A stretch of DNA of 64,000 nucleotides. Origin: Chryseobacterium camelliae (lineage in GTDB: Bacteria > Bacteroidota > Bacteroidia > Flavobacteriales > Weeksellaceae). Positions 53,177 through 62,488 of the stretch are shown here, piece after piece; within the stretch, counting starts at the first letter, position 1; every line of letters begins with the position of its first letter. Under the pieces are notes generated by a model. That model did no database searches, had not been told where the DNA came from, and saw only the letters and a list, made by a program, of their open reading frames with translations. The DNA lies in contig NZ_CP022986.1 in the NCBI RefSeq assembly GCF_002770595.1, forward strand, positions 2,046,001-2,110,000, in the 5' to 3' direction. Position numbers and translations under genes: made by a program.

Positions 53177-53926
53177 TTACCAGTTGTTCAGTCCGTTTTC
53201 CAGGGCTTTCAGATAGTTTTCTTCATTGAAAGAATACAGATCCGGGGCTTTGTGGGCCCCCCCTCTCCTGCTTTCATCCAGTTTTGTCAGGATCCCCATA
53301 TTTTTTATTTTCCTGTAGAAATTCCCTCTGTTCAGTGTCCTGCCCAGAATGACTTCGTACAGCTTCTGAAGCTCGGAAAGGGTAAATTTCTCTGGCAGCA
53401 GATTATAGCCTATCGGCTTGTAAGAAATTTTTTCACGGAGTGTTAACAGGGCTTTATCTATAATGTCACGATGGTCCATAGCCAGTTCAATATCGGGAAG
53501 CTGGCTCAGGTATACCCACTCACAGGTTTCGCTCAATTCATCGGCGACCAAATTGAAACGGTCCGGATTATATAATGCATAATACCCGATCGTTACAAAT
53601 CTCTGCTTATTAAAAAGGGTTTCATCAAAATCCTCAAAATAAAATTCACTCCTGTTTTTCTTGCCGAAAACACCGAACTGCTCCAGGTATACATCGGTAA
53701 CCCCTACCCTGTTTTTAAGGATTCTCGCAACAGCATCCTCCAGGTCTTCATCTTTCTGCACGTATCCTCCGGGTAAAAACCACTGCTTCCGATAATTCAT
53801 TTTCAGCAACAGTACCTTCAGTTCATTCTGATCAAAACCGAAAATGACCGGGTCGGCAGACAAATGGGGAAGAAATTTCTGTTTTGCTTCTTCGGATCGT
53901 TGTAAAATCAGGTCTCTTGAATCCAT
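53177..53926 (-). CDS. Nudix-type transcriptional regulator (NrtR/AraR-like)
   Basis: 249 residues. An N-terminal Nudix fold covers about 20-150. A winged-helix C-terminal domain (about 165-245) has FTLSELQKLYEVILGRTLNRGNFYRKIKNMGILTKLDESRRGGAHKAPDLYSF. The Nudix box keeps G54 and E60 but the REUxEExGU half is R68 I L K N R V G V, so the metal-binding glutamates are lost. This is expected for ligand-sensing regulators, not hydrolases. In Bacteroides a protein of this type (AraR) controls arabinose genes. Here it is divergent from a TonB receptor and glycosidase locus. Confidence 0.85.
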   Translation of the reverse strand: MDSRDLILQRSEEAKQKFLPHLSADPVIFGFDQNELKVLLLKMNYRKQWFLPGGYVQKDEDLEDAVARILKNRVGVTDVYLEQFGVFGKKNRSEFYFEDFDETLFNKQRFVTIGYYALYNPDRFNLVADELSETCEWVYLSQLPDIELAMDHRDIIDKALLTLREKISYKPIGYNLLPEKFTLSELQKLYEVILGRTLNRGNFYRKIKNMGILTKLDESRRGGAHKAPDLYSFNEENYLKALENGLNNW

Positions 53927-53951
53927 TCTCTATTGATGCTATTATGAATGA

Positions 53952-53984
53952 CAAATTTAACAATAATATAGTTGCGTTGTTCAA
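53952..53984 (-). promoter_or_regulatory. Promoter of the Nudix-type regulator
   Basis: On the minus strand TTG (53982-53984) and TAAATTTG (53952-53959) are 22 bp apart. The -7 box is 25 bp before the ATG. Confidence 0.6.
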
Positions 53985-54034
53985 AGTATGCGCCATGATA
54001 TCTATTTCGGGAATTTTTTTCAGTCTACAATATG

Positions 54035-54055
54035 ATTGTTTCCATAAGAAACAAT
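54035..54055. promoter_or_regulatory. Perfect palindrome, candidate operator
   Basis: ATTGTTTC, five bases (CATAA), then GAAACAAT. It lies in the 546-bp divergent gap between the Nudix-type regulator and the TonB-receptor gene. Its 21-bp size fits a dimeric regulator. The rest of the gap is AT-rich and holds no supported gene. Confidence 0.55.
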
Positions 54056-54472
54056 GGAAAAAGAATGTAAATTAATCATTTTAATACACTGACAAGCAAT
54101 ATTTTACGCCAAATATTAAATTTTATTAACATTTTTTTTGGTAATCCCGGTGAAAGAATGTAGTATTGTAATGTTTCATAGTGAAGCAATGATAAAATGA
54201 TTTTGATCCTTAAAAAAGTTCAAGATTTCTGTTAAAAAAGCAAGAATAAGTTAATGATCCTTTCATTTAACTGATGAATATAAAATTGTACACAGAAGCT
54301 CTTAAAAAAAAGCTCTTGTATGCCACCGGTATCGTGCTGATGAAGAAACTGCTTTGGAAATAACCTGACTGGTGCTGAATAATAATACTTAATGCTCATC
54401 CCGTATGTATTGGATGCAGGTAAAGTCATGTCAAAAAAAGAAATTAAAAATGAAAATACACAAGTCAAACCC

Positions 54473-56737
54473 ATGAAAAAACTGAGCGTACAATTTTCAG
54501 TACTGGCACTGATGCTTTCATTCGGAACCGTATCTGGACAGCAGACCGACAGCCTGGCAATAAAAAAAGCAGTAAAGGCGGCTACAAAAAATGAAGAAGG
54601 GATCAAAACGGTTACCTCATCATCCAAAGAAGACAACAACAGGAATGTGATGCTGAATGCAGCCAATAATACAAGTCCGAGAGATGTGAATATCGGCCTT
54701 CCCTCTACCGTAGGAGGAATTACCATTCTGGAGAATGACCTTCCCGTAGTCTATTTCTTCTGGCCGGAACTGCCTAATAAAACCTGGCGCCAAAGCGTAG
54801 GCCTTGAAAAGACAGGCCTTTTAAAAATGGACCAGCTGGCCAATACCATGGGCGACCTTGGTTTTGCCGTGAACTCCTACTCCCAAACAGGCACTAAAGA
54901 CCTTAAAATAAAAGGTAAACTTACGACCAGTACTTTCGGATGGCTTCAGGGTGATGCCAATGTTTCAGGGCCAATATCAAAAGATAAAAGCTGGACCTAT
55001 ACTGCTGGAGCCCTGGTTAATTATGATCCCAGCACCTTTAAGCTCGGATTTGCAAGAAATGTGGATGAAACTAAAATTTTCAGGGTCGGAGTTACCAAAT
55101 ACTTTAAAGAAGACAAAGGTAAAATTTCATTATTGTATAAATATTCCGATTCCTACAGTGTAGGCAATTATGCAGTTTTCCAATATGGTGAAAACGGAAA
55201 AGTAACGGAGCTTGACAACTTCAGGATCGGCAGGGATTCCTATGTCGTTCGAGACGGCAGGATCAAGATGAAAGACATCCTTTCCGGACAAAACTACTGG
55301 GCATCCATGAGCGGTGATGATAACAGGTCACAGGCCCATACCTTCAATATATTCGGAAATTACAAGCTTAACAATGGCTGGGATTTCAAATTTTCTACCC
55401 TGGCCCACTTTGGAAAGGTGAAAATGTCCACGATCATCCCTATAAGCATATTCAACGCAGATGCATCTGCAGGCTACAGGCTGGCCTCCAACGGGCAGCC
55501 GTATTCAGGAGCTGTAGGAACTCAATTGGCTATGCACACCCCGGAAACCCCTACCACCAATATTGCAGGACGGTTTTCTGTAGACAAGCAAATCGGTAAC
55601 CACCACGTAACCATCGGATTATTAGAACAGTACTACCACGTAAATAAATATACTTCCAACCGGTCTTTCTTTTTCCAGACCGTGGAAGCGCAGCCGCAAA
55701 GGCTGATCGGGACGTCCACGGACGCAGACGGATTCTATAATTACAATATCGGAGGTGAATACCACAGCGGAACGGAGAATAAGCTTTCATTATACGCTAC
55801 CGATGAATGGAAAGTTACCGATAACCTTAACCTTAGCTACGGGCTCCACCTGAGAAACCATCTGATTGACGGCGAATTTTCCATGACGCCAAGGACGCCT
55901 GGCTTTGTATTTGGGGCCAATGATTTCCAGAGCATCAAAACCAACTGGCTGCAGGTGGCAGGAAGCTTAAATGCAACCTACAACATCAGCAAGAATTTCG
56001 GTGTCCTGGCCAACTTCCTGTATACAGAAGAAAACAGGAGGCTGGAAAGCTATTCCCAGGCATTCAACCCCAATACCAATAAAATCAAAAGCCCGCTGGG
56101 TGCTGTCGGGGTATTCTGGAATACAGATTATATCCAGCTGATTTCCCAGGCCACCATCCTGAAAAGGAACAACAACCTCAACCGGTACAACCTGGTCAAT
56201 CCTGCCAATACCACCCAATCGCAGAACGTAACGGTGTATTATGACATCCAGACCATAGGCTGGACTACGGATTTCGTGCTGAAGCCATTCAAAGGATTCA
56301 ACCTGCATTACCTGATCACGTTCCAGAATCCGGTATACAAAAACTTTACTTTCAATGCTTTTGGCAAAGATTATAATTATAATGATAACAATGTATTAGG
56401 GGTAGCTAAAGTCCTTATGGAAATAGATCCAAGCTACACCGTGGATAAGTGGAGGTTCTGGGCCAGCTTCAGGTATTTTTCAAAACAGTATGCCAACCTG
56501 ACCAATGCGCTGTATTTTGCGCCAAGATGGGAAACTTTCGGAGGCGTAAGCTACACTGTTAATAAAAACATCAACATAGGTGCTACCGTTATCAACTTCC
56601 TGAACCAGAGAGGAGCCAGCGGAACCATCAACGGTGCTGAGCTGATCACTGATGCAAGTCCGTACTATGGGAAGCTGCTCACCGGAACCTATATCATGCC
56701 TCTCACAGGCCAACTGTCTGTAAGCTTTAATTTCTAG
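54473..56737 (+). CDS. TonB-dependent receptor
   Basis: 754 residues. The signal peptide is MKKLSVQFSVLALMLSFGTVSGQ. The N-terminal region lacks a carboxypeptidase-like domain. The plug region includes DVNIGLPSTVGGITILENDLPVVYFFWPELPNKTW. A 22-strand barrel follows, ending in LTGQLSVSFNF with terminal Phe. It likely imports an oligosaccharide released or used by the downstream GH3 enzymes. Starts at 54392 and 54428 in the same frame are less likely because they precede the signal peptide. The GH3 gene begins 11 bp after its stop. Confidence 0.88.
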   Translation: MKKLSVQFSVLALMLSFGTVSGQQTDSLAIKKAVKAATKNEEGIKTVTSSSKEDNNRNVMLNAANNTSPRDVNIGLPSTVGGITILENDLPVVYFFWPELPNKTWRQSVGLEKTGLLKMDQLANTMGDLGFAVNSYSQTGTKDLKIKGKLTTSTFGWLQGDANVSGPISKDKSWTYTAGALVNYDPSTFKLGFARNVDETKIFRVGVTKYFKEDKGKISLLYKYSDSYSVGNYAVFQYGENGKVTELDNFRIGRDSYVVRDGRIKMKDILSGQNYWASMSGDDNRSQAHTFNIFGNYKLNNGWDFKFSTLAHFGKVKMSTIIPISIFNADASAGYRLASNGQPYSGAVGTQLAMHTPETPTTNIAGRFSVDKQIGNHHVTIGLLEQYYHVNKYTSNRSFFFQTVEAQPQRLIGTSTDADGFYNYNIGGEYHSGTENKLSLYATDEWKVTDNLNLSYGLHLRNHLIDGEFSMTPRTPGFVFGANDFQSIKTNWLQVAGSLNATYNISKNFGVLANFLYTEENRRLESYSQAFNPNTNKIKSPLGAVGVFWNTDYIQLISQATILKRNNNLNRYNLVNPANTTQSQNVTVYYDIQTIGWTTDFVLKPFKGFNLHYLITFQNPVYKNFTFNAFGKDYNYNDNNVLGVAKVLMEIDPSYTVDKWRFWASFRYFSKQYANLTNALYFAPRWETFGGVSYTVNKNINIGATVINFLNQRGASGTINGAELITDASPYYGKLLTGTYIMPLTGQLSVSFNF

Positions 56738-56748
56738 CCTTTAATCCA

Positions 56749-59049
56749 ATGAAAAAATCAGTTTTAAAAATATCTGCATTATTCCTGGGGGTCACCGTTT
56801 TTGCCCAGAATATCCAGAATGTATCCAATTCTGATGGCCCTGTTTTGGGCTATTCAGCAGAATCCGGACTTAAAATCCTCACGGTAAACGGAAAAAAATT
56901 CAAAGATTTAAATAAAAACGGAAAGCTGGACCGGTACGAAGACTGGCGCCTGACTGCTGAAGAAAGGGCCAAAGACCTTGCTTCTAAAATGTCGGTTGAA
57001 CAGATTGCAGGATTGATGCTGTACAGCGGGCATCAATCGGTTCCGGCTCCGGCGGATGGGTTCCGGGCGGGAAAATATAATGGGAAGCTGTATAAAGAGA
57101 GCGGTGCAAATGCATGGGACCTTACCGACCAGCAGAAAAACTTCCTTAAGGAAGACCATCTTCGCCATGTGCTCGTGACTACCGTAGAATCTCCTGAAGT
57201 AGCCGCGCGCTGGAGCAATACTTTACAGGCTTACGTGGAAGGACTGGGGTTAGGAATCCCTGCCAATAACAGTACTGATCCCAGGCATTCGGCTACCGTT
57301 ACGGCAGAGTTCAACGAAGGTGCCGGCGGACAGATTTCCCTATGGCCGGACGGACTGGCCATGGGAGCCACATTTGATCCTGAGCTGGTCAGGAAATTCG
57401 GGAGTATTGCCGCCCAGGAATACAGGGCATTAGGAATTTCAACCGCCCTTTCTCCACAGGTTGACCTGGGTACGGAACCCCGATGGTACAGGATCGCCTA
57501 TGTGTTCAGCGAAAGCCCTGAACTGACTACAGATATGGCGCGGGCGTATATAGACGGATTCCAGACTACGCCGGGAAAAGGGAATTCCAAAAACGGGTGG
57601 GGAAATAAAAGCGTCAACGCCATGGTAAAACACTGGCCCGGAGGAGGACCGGAAGAAGGCGGCCGCGATGCCCACTGGGCCATGGGCAAATATGCCGTGT
57701 ATCCAGGAAATAATTTCCAGGCCCATCTTAAACCATTCACAGAAGGTGCATTTAAGCTGAACGGAGGAACCGGCGAAGCATCGGCAGTGATGCCTTATTA
57801 TACGATCAGCTATAATCAGGACCAGAAAAACAAGGAAAATGTAGGCAACGGATTCAGCAAATACATCATCATCGACCTGCTCCGCGGGAAATACGGTTAT
57901 GACGGTGTGGTATGTACAGACTGGCTGATTACAGCCGACGAGCCTAAAACTCCGGGCCTGTTTGCCGGGAAACCCTGGGGTGTTGAAAAAATGTCTGTGG
58001 CCGAGCGGCATTACAAAGTCCTGGAAGCCGGTGTAGACCAGTTCGGGGGGAATAATGACAAAGGTCCTGTTCTGGAAGCGTATCGGATGGGTGTAAAAGA
58101 GCACGGCGAGAAATATATGCGCAGCCGTTTTGAACAGTCGGCAGTCCGCCTTTTGAAAAATTTCTTCAGGACCGGTTTGTTTGAAAATCCTTACGTAAAC
58201 GTAGAAGAAACCAAAAAGACCGTTGGGAACCCAGAATTTATGAAAGCAGGTTACGAGGCACAGGTGAAATCCATTGTCATGCTGAAAAACAAAGGCAGCA
58301 TCCTTCCTGTAAGGGAAAGAAAAACCGTTTACGTTCCTAAAAGATATTCTCCTGCCACATTCAACTGGTGGGGAATATATACGGCTCCATCCCTGGATTA
58401 TCCGGTAGACATAGAAAAGATAAAAACACATTTCAATATAACAGATGATCCTGCCAAAGCCGACTTCGCATTGGTCTTTGTGAAAAGCCCGCACAGCGAG
58501 GAAGGCGGTTACAGCGACATCGATGCAGCAGAAGGCGGGAACGGGTATCTCCCGATCTCGCTGCAGTATCAGACTTACCAGGCAGTAGAAGCACGTACCA
58601 AAAGTATGGCCGCCGGGGATCCGGTGGTAGCTCCTGCTGTGAAGGACCGGACATTTAAAAACAAAACATCTACGGCAGCCAATTTCACAGACCTGCAGAC
58701 CATTGAAAATACCTACAGGGCTATGAATGGCAAGCCTGTAGTGGTTTCGGTAACGGCATCAAAGCCTATGGCTTTCAACGAATTTGAAAAACATGCCGAT
58801 GCTATTCTGGTAAACTTCAATGTTTCCAACCAGGCAGTGGTAGACATCGTGTCAGGAAAATATGAACCTTCCGGCCTGCTTCCGCTCCAGATGCCTGCTG
58901 ACATGAAAACAGTTGAACAACAGAAAGAAGACGTACCGTATGATATGGAAACCCATCTGGATTCAGAAGGTCACCATTATGATTTCGGATATGGGATGAA
59001 CTGGTCCGGTGTCATCCGGGATGCCCGAACGGCAAAATACAGAAAATAA
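56749..59049 (+). CDS. Secreted GH3-family glycoside hydrolase
   Basis: 766 residues with signal peptide ending at VFAQ (about residue 20). A short calcium-loop-like module DLNKNGKLDRYEDWRL lies at 53-68. The GH3 N-terminal barrel has KHWPGGGPEEGGRDAHW (294-310) and the nucleophile D391 in VVCTDWL. The C-terminal alpha/beta domain begins near 500 and ends in SEGHHYDFGYGMNW. It probably acts as an exo-beta-glycosidase in the periplasm. It is part of a four-gene operon with the TonB receptor. Confidence 0.9.
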   Translation: MKKSVLKISALFLGVTVFAQNIQNVSNSDGPVLGYSAESGLKILTVNGKKFKDLNKNGKLDRYEDWRLTAEERAKDLASKMSVEQIAGLMLYSGHQSVPAPADGFRAGKYNGKLYKESGANAWDLTDQQKNFLKEDHLRHVLVTTVESPEVAARWSNTLQAYVEGLGLGIPANNSTDPRHSATVTAEFNEGAGGQISLWPDGLAMGATFDPELVRKFGSIAAQEYRALGISTALSPQVDLGTEPRWYRIAYVFSESPELTTDMARAYIDGFQTTPGKGNSKNGWGNKSVNAMVKHWPGGGPEEGGRDAHWAMGKYAVYPGNNFQAHLKPFTEGAFKLNGGTGEASAVMPYYTISYNQDQKNKENVGNGFSKYIIIDLLRGKYGYDGVVCTDWLITADEPKTPGLFAGKPWGVEKMSVAERHYKVLEAGVDQFGGNNDKGPVLEAYRMGVKEHGEKYMRSRFEQSAVRLLKNFFRTGLFENPYVNVEETKKTVGNPEFMKAGYEAQVKSIVMLKNKGSILPVRERKTVYVPKRYSPATFNWWGIYTAPSLDYPVDIEKIKTHFNITDDPAKADFALVFVKSPHSEEGGYSDIDAAEGGNGYLPISLQYQTYQAVEARTKSMAAGDPVVAPAVKDRTFKNKTSTAANFTDLQTIENTYRAMNGKPVVVSVTASKPMAFNEFEKHADAILVNFNVSNQAVVDIVSGKYEPSGLLPLQMPADMKTVEQQKEDVPYDMETHLDSEGHHYDFGYGMNWSGVIRDARTAKYRK

Positions 59050-59131
59050 AAATGAACGATACTATACCACTATTAAGTATTGAATATTGATCAATAACCA
59101 TTAATAATTAACATTGTTAATATGTAATCAC

Positions 59132-60010
59132 ATGAGAAAATTAATCATAACAGGCTTATTCCTGATGGCAGCCGGCAGTATTGATGCCCAGAAAACCATT
59201 CCACTTTACCAGGGCAAAGCTCCCGGCACCGAAAGCTGGACCCAAAAAGAAGCCCAGCAGTTTTCGGACCTCTTCAAAACAGAAGTGGTGTACAATGTCG
59301 CACAACCCTCCATGCTCGTTTTTGAAGCAGATAAGGCGAAGGCGAACGGAACCGTGATTATTATTGCTCCCGGAGGCGGATTTCAGAGCCTTTCCATCAA
59401 CCGTGAAGGGGTCGACCTGGCTAAAAAGCTGGCTGCAAAAGGCATTACTGCAATTGTTTTAAAATACAGGCTCCTGGAAACCAAATCCAATGACCCTGCC
59501 CGCGAAATGATGGACAACCTCAAAAGCAGGACTTCATTCGATGAGCGGACAGCACCCATTAAAATGATGGCCGGAGAAGATATCAGGACTGCTATTGCGT
59601 ATGTCCGGACGCATGCAAAAGAAATGAACATCAAACCGGACCGTCTAGGCGTCATCGGTTTTTCTGCCGGTTCAACCGTCATTCTGGAAAGCGTGCTCCA
59701 CAGCAAAGATGCATCTACGGTACCGAATTTTGCAGCCTCCATTTACGGAGGTCCTTCAGAAGATCTGCTCAAAGCTGAAATTCCTAAATCTCCGCTCCCC
59801 CTATTCATCTGTGCAGCCAGTGACGACCAGCTGAAGCTGGCTCCCAAATCTATCCTGCTGTATAACAAATGGACCGAAGCAGGACAGCCGGCCGAACTTC
59901 ATCTCTATGAAAAAGGCGGCCATGGATTCGGTATGGGAAAACAGAACCTGCCGGTAGACCACTGGTCTGACGTTTACATGGAATGGCTTGCATTCCACCA
60001 GTATTTATAA
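59132..60010 (+). CDS. Secreted alpha/beta hydrolase (acetylesterase-like)
   Basis: 292 residues with signal peptide MRKLIITGLFLMAAGSIDAQ. The oxyanion region is APGGGF (79-84). The nucleophile is S178 in GFSAGS. The acid is in AASDDQL, and the His in EKGGHGFGM. This places it with the BD-FAE/acetyl-xylan-esterase-like group that removes acetyl or feruloyl groups from plant polysaccharides. The ATG at 59132 gives the signal peptide; a start at 59114 adds six residues and is less likely. It lies between the two GH3 genes. Confidence 0.88.
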   Translation: MRKLIITGLFLMAAGSIDAQKTIPLYQGKAPGTESWTQKEAQQFSDLFKTEVVYNVAQPSMLVFEADKAKANGTVIIIAPGGGFQSLSINREGVDLAKKLAAKGITAIVLKYRLLETKSNDPAREMMDNLKSRTSFDERTAPIKMMAGEDIRTAIAYVRTHAKEMNIKPDRLGVIGFSAGSTVILESVLHSKDASTVPNFAASIYGGPSEDLLKAEIPKSPLPLFICAASDDQLKLAPKSILLYNKWTEAGQPAELHLYEKGGHGFGMGKQNLPVDHWSDVYMEWLAFHQYL

Positions 60011-60031: not shown

Positions 60032-62488
60032 ATGGACAAGAATACATTGACGCTGACCGGTATTTCCCGGAAAGCAAAATATTCGGGATTGTTCCTTGCT
60101 CTGCTGGCTGCTTCAACTTATGCAAAAGCACAAAACACCTATCCGATAATAAAAGCAGGCGGTAAAAGCTTTAAGGATTTTAATAAAAACGGGAAGCTTG
60201 ACACCTGGGAGGACACACGGCTCCCCAAAGACCAGAGAATCAATGCCATCATACAACAGATGACCAATGCTGAAAAAGCGGATTTGCTGATCGGCACAGG
60301 CATGCCCGGAATCGAAGTGCTTACCGGGCCTGTAGGCGACTCTAAACAGGGGGCGGTTCCCGGCGCAGCCGGTGGAACCGCTTCCCTGGACCGTTTCGGA
60401 ATTCCTCCGACAGTGGTCGCAGACGGACCTGCCGGACTGAGAATATCCCCTACCCGTAAAGACGATTCAAAAACCTATTATGCAACCGCATTTCCTGTAG
60501 GTACGGCTCTAGCTTCCACCTGGAACACAGCTTTGCTGGAAGAGGTGGGAAAAGCAATGGGTAATGAAGTGAAGGAATACGGAGTAGACGTACTTTTGGC
60601 TCCTGCCCTCAACATCCACAGAAACCCGCTCAACGGACGGAATTTTGAATATTACTCAGAAGACCCCCTTATTTCAGGTAAAACAGCAGCGGCTATCGTG
60701 AATGGCATCCAGTCACAGGGTGTCGGGACTTCTATCAAGCATTTTGCTGCTAACAATGAAGAAACCAACCGTCTGAAGATCAACGTACATGTTTCCGAAC
60801 GCGCCATGCGTGAACTGTACCTGAAGGGCTTTGAAATTGCGGTCAAAGAATCCCAGCCGTGGACGGTAATGTCATCCTATAATAAAGTAAACGGGGTTTA
60901 TACTTCAGACAGCAAAGACCTGCTTACCCAGGTACTGAGGAAAGAATGGGGATTCAAAGGCATTGTGATGACGGACTGGTTCGGAGGGTTTCCCGGATTT
61001 GAGTCTATCCGGAGCGGCGGAATCTCCGATGTCATTGCCCAGATGAATGCCGGCAACGACCTGCTGATGCCAGGGATTCCGGCTCAGAAAAAGGCATTGC
61101 TTTCCGCCCTGGATTCCGGAAAGGTGTCTCAGGAAACGGCCAACATCAATGTAAAAAGAATCCTGGAATATATATTCCACACCCCTACTTTTACCGGTTA
61201 CCGGTACAGCAACCAGCCGGATCTGGATCGGCATGCTGAAGTAACGAGGAATGCCGCATCAGAAGGCATGGTCCTGCTTAAAAATGAAAGCAATACCCTT
61301 CCTTTCAGCGATAAGCAGAAAGAAGTTTCCCTGTTCGGGGTAACTTCATACGCATGGATTACAGGAGGAACCGGAAGCGGAAGCGTTAACAACAAGCATA
61401 CAGTTTCCCTGCTGGAAGGGCTGAAAGCAGCAGGCTACCGGCTAGATAAGGAACTGGCAGACCTTTACACGCCCCATGCTGATCGGGAAGTAGCAGCAGA
61501 AAAGGACCGGAGGAAAGCCAAAGGAATCCTGGCCCTGCCGGAAAGGCTTCCCGAAATGAAGATGGATGATGCCTTTATCGCTAAAAAAGCGGAAACATCA
61601 GCAATAGCTTTCGTTACCCTGGGAAGAAATTCGGGCGAAGGCGGTGACCGTAAAGTGGATAATGATTTCAATCTTGCCTCTGAAGAGCTTGAAATGCTGG
61701 ACAAAATCTCAAAAGTATTTCATGCGAGAGGCAAAAAGGTAGTGGTCATCCTGAACACCGGCGGTGTTATTGAAACCGCTTCCTGGAAAGACAAAGCCGA
61801 TGCCATCCTGCTGGCATGGCAGCCGGGACAGGAAGGCGGGCATTCTGTAGCAGACGTCCTTTCCGGAAAAGTCAACCCATCCGGAAAACTGACCATGACA
61901 TTCCCGGTAAACTATACGGATACGCCTTCGGCCAAGAATTTCCCGGGCATCCCTGCAGACAATCCTAAAGAGGTTACGTACGAAGAAGGCATCTATGTAG
62001 GATACCGTTATTTTAATACGTTTCACGTAAAGCCATCATATGAATTCGGATACGGAAAATCCTATACGGATTTCGACTATCAAAATATTAAAGTCAGTCC
62101 AATATCCGGCTCATCTTTTACAGTAAGCCTCGACGTAAAGAATACGGGAACAACCAGCGGAAAGGAAGTGGTCCAGCTGTATGTATCAGCGCCGCACCAT
62201 CTGGCGGACAAACCGAAATCTGAACTGAAAGCCTATGCCAAAACAAAGCTGCTGAAACCCGGAGAAACCGAGACGGTTACCCTGACGCTTTCCCCGAAAG
62301 ACCTTGCTTCATTCATTACCGCAAAAAGTGCATGGATCGCTGAAGCAGGACCCTATACCGTATCAGCCGGCGCCTCATCACTGGATATCAGACAGTCTGC
62401 AAATTTCCAGCTCCCTGAGGAAATTACCGTTGAAAAAGTGCAGCATGTGCTTCCGGAAGACCAGCCGTTCAAAGAGCTGAAACCATAA
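60032..62488 (+). CDS. Secreted GH3-family beta-glycosidase with fibronectin III-like domain
   Basis: 818 residues. The signal segment GLFLALLAASTYAKAQ ends near residue 34 after a basic N-terminus. A calcium-loop-like DFNKNGKLDTWEDTRL at 49-64 mirrors the one in the other GH3 enzyme. The GH3 barrel has KHFAANNEET (236-245) and nucleophile D315 in IVMTDWFGG. The second domain follows (acid/base region GRNSGEGGDRK), and a C-terminal fibronectin III-like domain runs from about 680 (VSLDVKNTGTTSGKEVVQLYVS). It is likely a beta-glucosidase or xylosidase; specificity is unknown. Confidence 0.92.
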   Translation: MDKNTLTLTGISRKAKYSGLFLALLAASTYAKAQNTYPIIKAGGKSFKDFNKNGKLDTWEDTRLPKDQRINAIIQQMTNAEKADLLIGTGMPGIEVLTGPVGDSKQGAVPGAAGGTASLDRFGIPPTVVADGPAGLRISPTRKDDSKTYYATAFPVGTALASTWNTALLEEVGKAMGNEVKEYGVDVLLAPALNIHRNPLNGRNFEYYSEDPLISGKTAAAIVNGIQSQGVGTSIKHFAANNEETNRLKINVHVSERAMRELYLKGFEIAVKESQPWTVMSSYNKVNGVYTSDSKDLLTQVLRKEWGFKGIVMTDWFGGFPGFESIRSGGISDVIAQMNAGNDLLMPGIPAQKKALLSALDSGKVSQETANINVKRILEYIFHTPTFTGYRYSNQPDLDRHAEVTRNAASEGMVLLKNESNTLPFSDKQKEVSLFGVTSYAWITGGTGSGSVNNKHTVSLLEGLKAAGYRLDKELADLYTPHADREVAAEKDRRKAKGILALPERLPEMKMDDAFIAKKAETSAIAFVTLGRNSGEGGDRKVDNDFNLASEELEMLDKISKVFHARGKKVVVILNTGGVIETASWKDKADAILLAWQPGQEGGHSVADVLSGKVNPSGKLTMTFPVNYTDTPSAKNFPGIPADNPKEVTYEEGIYVGYRYFNTFHVKPSYEFGYGKSYTDFDYQNIKVSPISGSSFTVSLDVKNTGTTSGKEVVQLYVSAPHHLADKPKSELKAYAKTKLLKPGETETVTLTLSPKDLASFITAKSAWIAEAGPYTVSAGASSLDIRQSANFQLPEEITVEKVQHVLPEDQPFKELKP

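Follow-up and report, generated by a model that had tools for sequence, protein, structure and literature searches.

Genes and sites at the locus

The window, a 64,000-nucleotide stretch of the Chryseobacterium camelliae genome, contains a regulator gene and, divergent from it, an operon for a receptor-like outer-membrane protein, a GH3 glycoside hydrolase (GH3a), an esterase-like enzyme and a second GH3 enzyme (GH3b). Probable promoter elements and two dyads, designated site 1 and site 2, are located in the gap (Table 1). The receptor gene start at 54473 is better supported than that at 54392.

Table 1. Features of the regulator/receptor locus (window coordinates)
Feature	Position	Strand	Basis
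NrtR/AraR-family regulator, 249 aa	53177..53926	-	ORF, domain profiles, structure-relative alignment
Start of recognition helix NRGNFYRK, residues 199-206	53309..53332	-	Alignment; coordinates hand-counted
Degenerate Nudix box, residues 54-76	53699..53767	-	Alignment; coordinates hand-counted from the 249-aa frame
-7 box of regulator gene (probable), TAAATTTG	53952..53959	-	Conserved in 10-locus alignment
Site 1, perfect 8-5-8 dyad ATTGTTTC-CATAA-GAAACAAT, upstream operator (predicted)	54035..54055		Window scan, 10-gap alignment, further loci
-33 TTTG of receptor/GH3 operon (probable)	54137..54140	+	Alignment, further loci
-7 box of receptor/GH3 operon (probable), TAGTATTG	54161..54168	+	Alignment, further loci, consensus TAnnTTTG as excerpted from PMC9723704
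Site 2, dyad AATGTTTC-ATAGT-GAAGCAAT over predicted transcription start, main operator (predicted)	54170..54190		Scan, alignment
TonB-dependent-receptor-like outer-membrane protein	54473..56737	+	Homologue profiles, AlphaFold/Foldseek
GH3 glycoside hydrolase (GH3a), conserved receptor partner	56749..59049	+	Profiles, comparison
alpha/beta-Hydrolase, esterase-like	59114..60010	+	Profiles
GH3 beta-glucosidase-like enzyme (GH3b)	60032..62488	+	Profiles

The receptor-like protein of the window gives no Pfam match above the cut-off, and it is absent from the 44 plug-domain matches of the genome. The TonB barrel profile matches seven of its 25 aligned homologues. An AlphaFold model calculated from 25 sequences has a pLDDT of 75; an earlier model from six sequences (pLDDT 26) was discarded in favour of it. 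According to Foldseek, the 25-sequence model resembles TonB-dependent receptors (best E 8e-22, TM about 0.55). Thus the TonB label of the first-pass annotation, made from the letters of the window, is carried by the homologues and the fold match, and not by a direct Pfam or plug-domain match in the protein itself. The closest named locus, from an uncultured Chryseobacterium, has a receptor 96% identical to that of the window.

The regulator protein

The N-terminal part of the regulator matches the Nudix fold (PF00293, 7.7e-12) and residues 173-233 match the NrtR-type winged helix (NrtR_WHD, PF21906, 2.6e-24), both above the Pfam cut-offs. The AraR_C profile also matches the C-terminus (4e-9), and the best solved relative is BtAraR (E 4e-42). 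The domain order, a Nudix-like N-terminal part followed by an NrtR-type winged helix, is that of the NrtR superfamily, and the impaired Nudix catalytic motif of this superfamily is also found: RILKNR replaces REUxEE, and all three glutamates are replaced in the sequence and the alignment. The lost glutamates and the C-terminal winged helix had both been noticed in the first pass, and both were correct. Judged from these profiles and the alignment, the regulator is a Nudix-derived, probably non-catalytic protein of the NrtR superfamily. It represents a new orthologous group there. In the tree, its group forms a single clade with support 96/97 and is separate from AraR. The group and its operator were not found named or described in the limited literature collection that was searched.

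BtAraR (BT0354 of Bacteroides thetaiotaomicron; PDB entries 5bs6, 5dd4, 5ddg and 5deq) is alike in combining a Nudix-like sensor, with an impaired Nudix box, and a winged helix. According to the excerpted text of PMC4666351, it uses 21-bp semi-palindromic operators, often paired, and controls carbohydrate operons including outer-membrane importers. However, its intercalating Arg180 is replaced by Gly and its Asp178 by Asn in all 42 relatives of the present regulator, and its half-site is GTGT, whereas GNTT is found here. The DNA-binding residues Lys179/Arg180/Asn181/Lys184/Lys204/Arg205 are R/G/N/R/H/K in the window protein, and the ligand trio Arg34/Arg86/His131 is incomplete (Arg34 is Met), so that neither set is that of an AraR. 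AraR is linked to arabinose catabolic genes, whereas the neighbours here are receptor, GH3, esterase and GH3 genes. The window regulator would work like AraR but belongs to a separate clade and is not AraR.

NrtR sensu stricto, the ADP-ribose-responsive repressors of NAD genes (e.g. SoNrtR, 3gz5), shares the fold and the winged helix. The window protein, however, scores 125.5 bits on the NCBIfam equivalog NF050029 (cut-off 400) and has lost the phosphate-contacting arginine of NrtR, and, unlike for NrtR sensu stricto, no NAD genes are present among the operon neighbours scanned. The xylose regulator BtXylR (BT0791), compared here by its description in the excerpted PMC4666351, is likewise an NrtR-family protein of Bacteroidetes tied to sugar use, but it clusters with xylose genes.

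Two dyads and their conservation

The perfect 8-5-8 palindrome that the first pass had placed between the regulator and the receptor/GH3 operon is present as site 1. Site 2, overlooked at that time, is a degenerate copy, two mismatches off. The sole exact match of ATTGNTTC-N5-GAANCAAT in the 4.38-Mb genome is site 1. When the window was scanned at up to three mismatches, three matches were found against 1.12 expected, and 11 of 100 shuffles also reach three. These window-only statistics were rejected as proof of a site; as they are weak, the case for the sites rests on the comparison across loci. A TTTTTGGGGAA-like block is also seen some 80 bp upstream of where the regulator gene starts, at about 54006-54016 in the window and in 16 of 42 related gaps.

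Of 36 genus genomes, counting that of the window, ten have the receptor gene, and the same ten carry GH3a; in all ten loci the regulator is divergent from and adjacent to the receptor operon. The alignment of the ten gaps shows two conserved dyads with the core GNTTC-N5-GAANC, site 2 being kept in 10/10 and site 1 in 7/10; in the three loci that do not have site 1, the regulator is only 61-65% identical. The receptor alignment was then used against named genomes, resulting in 63 loci, 46 of them at 54% identity or more. Seven of the 46 are near-copies of the discovery loci and were dropped, leaving 39 for a fresh test. The core is located upstream of the receptor gene in 38 of these 39 (twice in 25, once in 13), from Chryseobacterium to Pedobacter, and an intact divergent regulator is present in 35. 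In the shuffled-gap control, the core appeared in 18 of 7800 cases, and outside the gaps of the same further loci it occurs three times in 426,212 bases. The first-pass proposal of a regulator with a matching operator at this locus had been made to depend on conservation of the palindrome at homologous loci. The palindrome is conserved in both sets (10/10 and 38/39), and the conserved core beside a divergent regulator supports the proposal.

Four further loci are exceptional. The Flavobacterium pectinovorum locus (L136) has neither core nor regulator; two loci (L138 and L150) keep the core with no regulator within 5 kb, and one (L140) keeps it beside a broken regulator. The two sites are 132-135 bp apart in 29 of the 30 two-site loci, and the remaining locus is atypical (325 bp).

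Recognition helix and half-site

According to the alignment, N199-N202 of the regulator (NRGN) correspond to residues 178-181 of BtAraR. In the BtAraR-DNA complex, as described in the excerpted PMC4666351, Lys179 is in contact with G7 and Asp178 with C19, Asn181 reads A18, and Arg180 intercalates at T8/G9. Superposition of the dyads places the BtAraR-contacted G7/C21 and A18 on G4/C18 and A15 here. Regulators of the NrtR superfamily bind, as dimers, a dyad operator of roughly 21 bp, and the candidate cognate dyad of the window has the geometry expected for this. All 42 relatives in which an intact regulator adjoins the receptor operon have NRGN, and the gaps of these loci contain GNTTC-N5-GAANC in 42/42 and TGYGT-N7-ACRCA in 0/42. 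Among 17 distant loci, 11 have a regulator, and the other six gave no regulator match in the sequence searched. In 11 Bacteroidales loci, the regulator is divergent from GH3a with the receptor next, and its helix is DRRN in every case. The gaps of these loci contain TGYGT-N7-ACRCA in 11/11 and GNTTC-N5-GAANC in 0/11; outside the Bacteroidales gaps, TGYGT-N7-ACRCA was not found in 116,271 bases.

The co-change of NRGN and DRRN between the two orthologue clades may be largely one evolutionary event. A DRRN paralogue in the same genome (G000:C1:2788152-2788793(+), L033) is the stronger test of a rule between helix and half-site. A G[CT]GT dyad is located close upstream of this paralogue in all 20 sampled genus genomes, and a second one downstream in 19 of them. 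In full, the upstream dyads are of the type TTTGTGT-N7-ACGCAAA (L200-L219, 20/20), and the paralogue is probably autoregulated. An AraR-like DKRN paralogue (G000:C1:287655-288305(-), L032; L220-L229) groups with BtAraR in the tree, and the dyad TAAATGTT-N5-AACATTTC is conserved with it in 10/10 sampled genomes. The G at the third half-site base fits the code given below, but the first base (position 4) is A, not G, and misfits; thus residue 179 follows no simple code. For a fourth paralogue class (RRNN), the scan of upstream gaps showed no kept dyad.

We propose a two-residue code for the NrtR family of Bacteroidota, for which we hold the chances to be evenly balanced. In AraR and in the DRRN and DKRN groups, Asp178 and Arg180 would recognise G as the third base of the half-site; with Asn178 and Gly180, the base read there would be T. 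The intercalating arginine would have been lost and the adjacent base freed to vary, and a new, non-arabinose ligand would be tied to the widely conserved GH3/outer-membrane-receptor glycoside system. The matched helix and half-site can serve as a rule for predicting NrtR-type operators, and this rule has held on one paralogue. The group without the intercalating arginine provides a natural experiment on the role of arginine intercalation in BtAraR.

Probable promoter layout and proposed mode of action

The -33/-7 reading follows the Bacteroidota consensus of PMC9723704 and PMC7366714, as far as excerpted. In the former, the -7 consensus is TAnnTTTG and the box is placed at -12 to -5. This places the predicted transcription start at about 54173, and site 2 then spans about -3 to +18. 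In 45 of 46 loci a core follows the -7 box region immediately; 30 of the 45 have two cores and 15 have one. In 31/45 loci the spacing between a TAnn[AT]TTG box and the site-2 core downstream of it is identical, and in 38/45 such a box is found within 46 nt before the core. The start of the receptor match follows site 2 at 74 to 392 bp. Read from the promoter sequence, the location of site 2 over the predicted start is a repressor's position, and the near-universal site directly 3' of the -7 box points to a repressor rather than an activator. As a single core is present in 15/45 loci and one spacing is 325 bp, site 1 appears not to be essential. As it lies some 75 bp upstream of the probable -7 box of the regulator gene itself, it is not an obvious auto-operator.

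The palindrome pair is very probably the operator of the regulator, and the protein very probably represses the receptor/GH3 operon, as far as sequence comparison can tell. In the mechanism that we consider highly likely, a Nudix-derived dimeric sensor of the NrtR family represses the receptor-GH3-esterase-GH3 operon through two dyad operators until a sugar binds. The Nudix enzyme fold of the dimer would have been turned into a ligand sensor. The ligand-free regulator would bind the two 21-bp operators, and on site 2 it would block RNA polymerase. Site 1 would be an auxiliary operator, perhaps adding to repression by looping or co-binding. The imported glycoside would yield a sugar, probably in the form of a free sugar or small glycoside, which would enter the dead Nudix pocket, and the DNA would be released. 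Binding, repression, looping and the ligand are what we infer. The family, the lost glutamates, both sites, their conservation, the promoter position and the matched change of helix and half-site are computed. If so, a predicted operator, a target operon and a mode of action open to testing can be assigned to this regulator group in Flavobacteriia and Sphingobacteriia, and Bacteroidales have a counterpart.

The first-pass annotation had left the choice between repressor and activator open. As an activator, the regulator would act from site 1, and site 2 would be secondary. In favour of this, activators bind upstream of promoters, where site 1 is found, and of the two copies in the window site 1 is the more nearly perfect. 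On the other hand, the core behind the -7 box region is the one kept (45/46), whereas two cores are kept only in 30/45. Moreover, according to the excerpted PMC4666351, BtAraR leaves the DNA when its ligand binds, and NrtR proteins act as repressors. We regard activation as unlikely, and the repressor half of the suggestion is favoured.

The palindromes might instead serve another DNA-binding protein, an NrtR paralogue or an unrelated regulator, with the Nudix-type gene as a mere neighbour. This agrees with the three loci in which the core is kept but no intact regulator is found within 5 kb, and with the 18 regulator orthologues that do not have the core (see below). However, the dyad geometry matches the BtAraR footprint, helix and half-site co-vary from clade to clade, and the genome has four other NrtR-type helices, of which none is NRGN. 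We regard such a protein as improbable. Inverted repeats can also fold into hairpins, and site 2 is at the predicted 5' end of the transcript, as expected if the dyads were RNA hairpins or attenuators in the leader. Site 1, however, is outside the predicted operon transcript, and no T-run follows site 2. The arms are not strictly complementary, since positions 5 and 17 pair in 43 of 75 sites (27.4 by chance), and the fixed bases coincide with AraR-DNA contact positions. An RNA function is very improbable indeed.

Ligand

In the repressor reading, the ligand would be accommodated by the altered Nudix pocket. The position of BtAraR Arg34 is Met in the window protein; among the 42 relatives it is Met in 33 and Leu, Thr, Ile or Phe in nine, and the equivalents of Arg86 and His131 are kept in all 42. 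According to the excerpted PMC4666351, the corresponding Arg41 of SoNrtR contacts phosphate, and the ligand of BtAraR is a free sugar. As the phosphate-contacting arginine is Met in the window protein, a sugar-phosphate ligand is not supported, and the sugar-phosphate sensing suggested in the first pass was given up. L-Arabinose and sugar phosphate were rejected as ligands on pocket residues alone, the loss of Arg34 and of the phosphate contact, respectively. Judged from the pocket sequence, ADP-ribose, arabinose and sugar phosphates are less likely ligands than a free sugar or small glycoside. The operon encodes enzymes similar to beta-glucosidases and esterases, and its substrate may accordingly be a beta-glycoside, possibly acylated. 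The identity of the ligand would show which food source the conserved GH3/receptor system serves.

Orthologues away from the operon and genome-wide searches

Regulator orthologues (at least 61% identity) are present in 25 of the 36 genus genomes. Eighteen orthologues are located away from the operon: four beside a glucose/galactose-type permease, 12 in an MFS/lactonase context, one apart and one in another family. This last, the single orthologue outside the genus, is from another family of the same order, is 50% identical and has the helix DRRN, and the 17 within the genus retain NRGN. The strict core was found in none of the 18 own gaps (0/18), and three of these gaps contain a single one-mismatch match. 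The genus orthologues away from the operon either bind few distant sites or have changed function. The NRGN orthologues without a nearby core, together with the lack of a clear genome-wide target, are the main evidence against the simple reading. In the MFS/lactonase context (context C, 12 loci; L056-L059, L063, L064, L066-L073), the orthologue has an MFS transporter gene and a lactonase-like gene as neighbours; its helix is the same, and the dyad is absent. At L061 and L065, which are not beside the operon, the site-1 position keeps the right half of the dyad only, as if the operator had decayed.

The genome-wide search for the palindrome, proposed in the first pass, singled out site 1 as the one exact match in the genome of the window and defined no regulon. 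One-mismatch counts show no clear difference between genomes with and without the regulator. The one- and two-mismatch searches were rejected as a definition of the regulon, because symmetric words exceed the reversed control whether or not the regulator is present. Two of the four other one-mismatch matches in the genome of the window are inside genes, as are 17 of the 26 non-operon matches examined. Two perfect matches, one inside a gene (G028) and one upstream of ndk (G009), were not taken as targets.

A composite -7/operator pattern gave 14 matches in the 36 genomes: nine operon promoters, one paralogous receptor gene in the genome of the window and four elsewhere. The paralogous receptor gene (G000:C1:47959-50286(-); L078, 8945-11287) has this -7/operator module some 23 bp upstream of its start. 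It has an in-frame internal stop and is absent from the other genomes searched (59).

A similar 21-bp palindrome is located about 275 bp from an ndk-like gene in several Chryseobacterium genomes (L083, L084, L086, L101 and L106); it lies between genes that, by their protein starts, are tentatively rsgA-like and ndk-like. In two genomes (L104 and L111), a ATTGATTC-N5-GAATCA dyad is located about 100-113 bp from a gene whose 116-aa product begins like a signal peptide.
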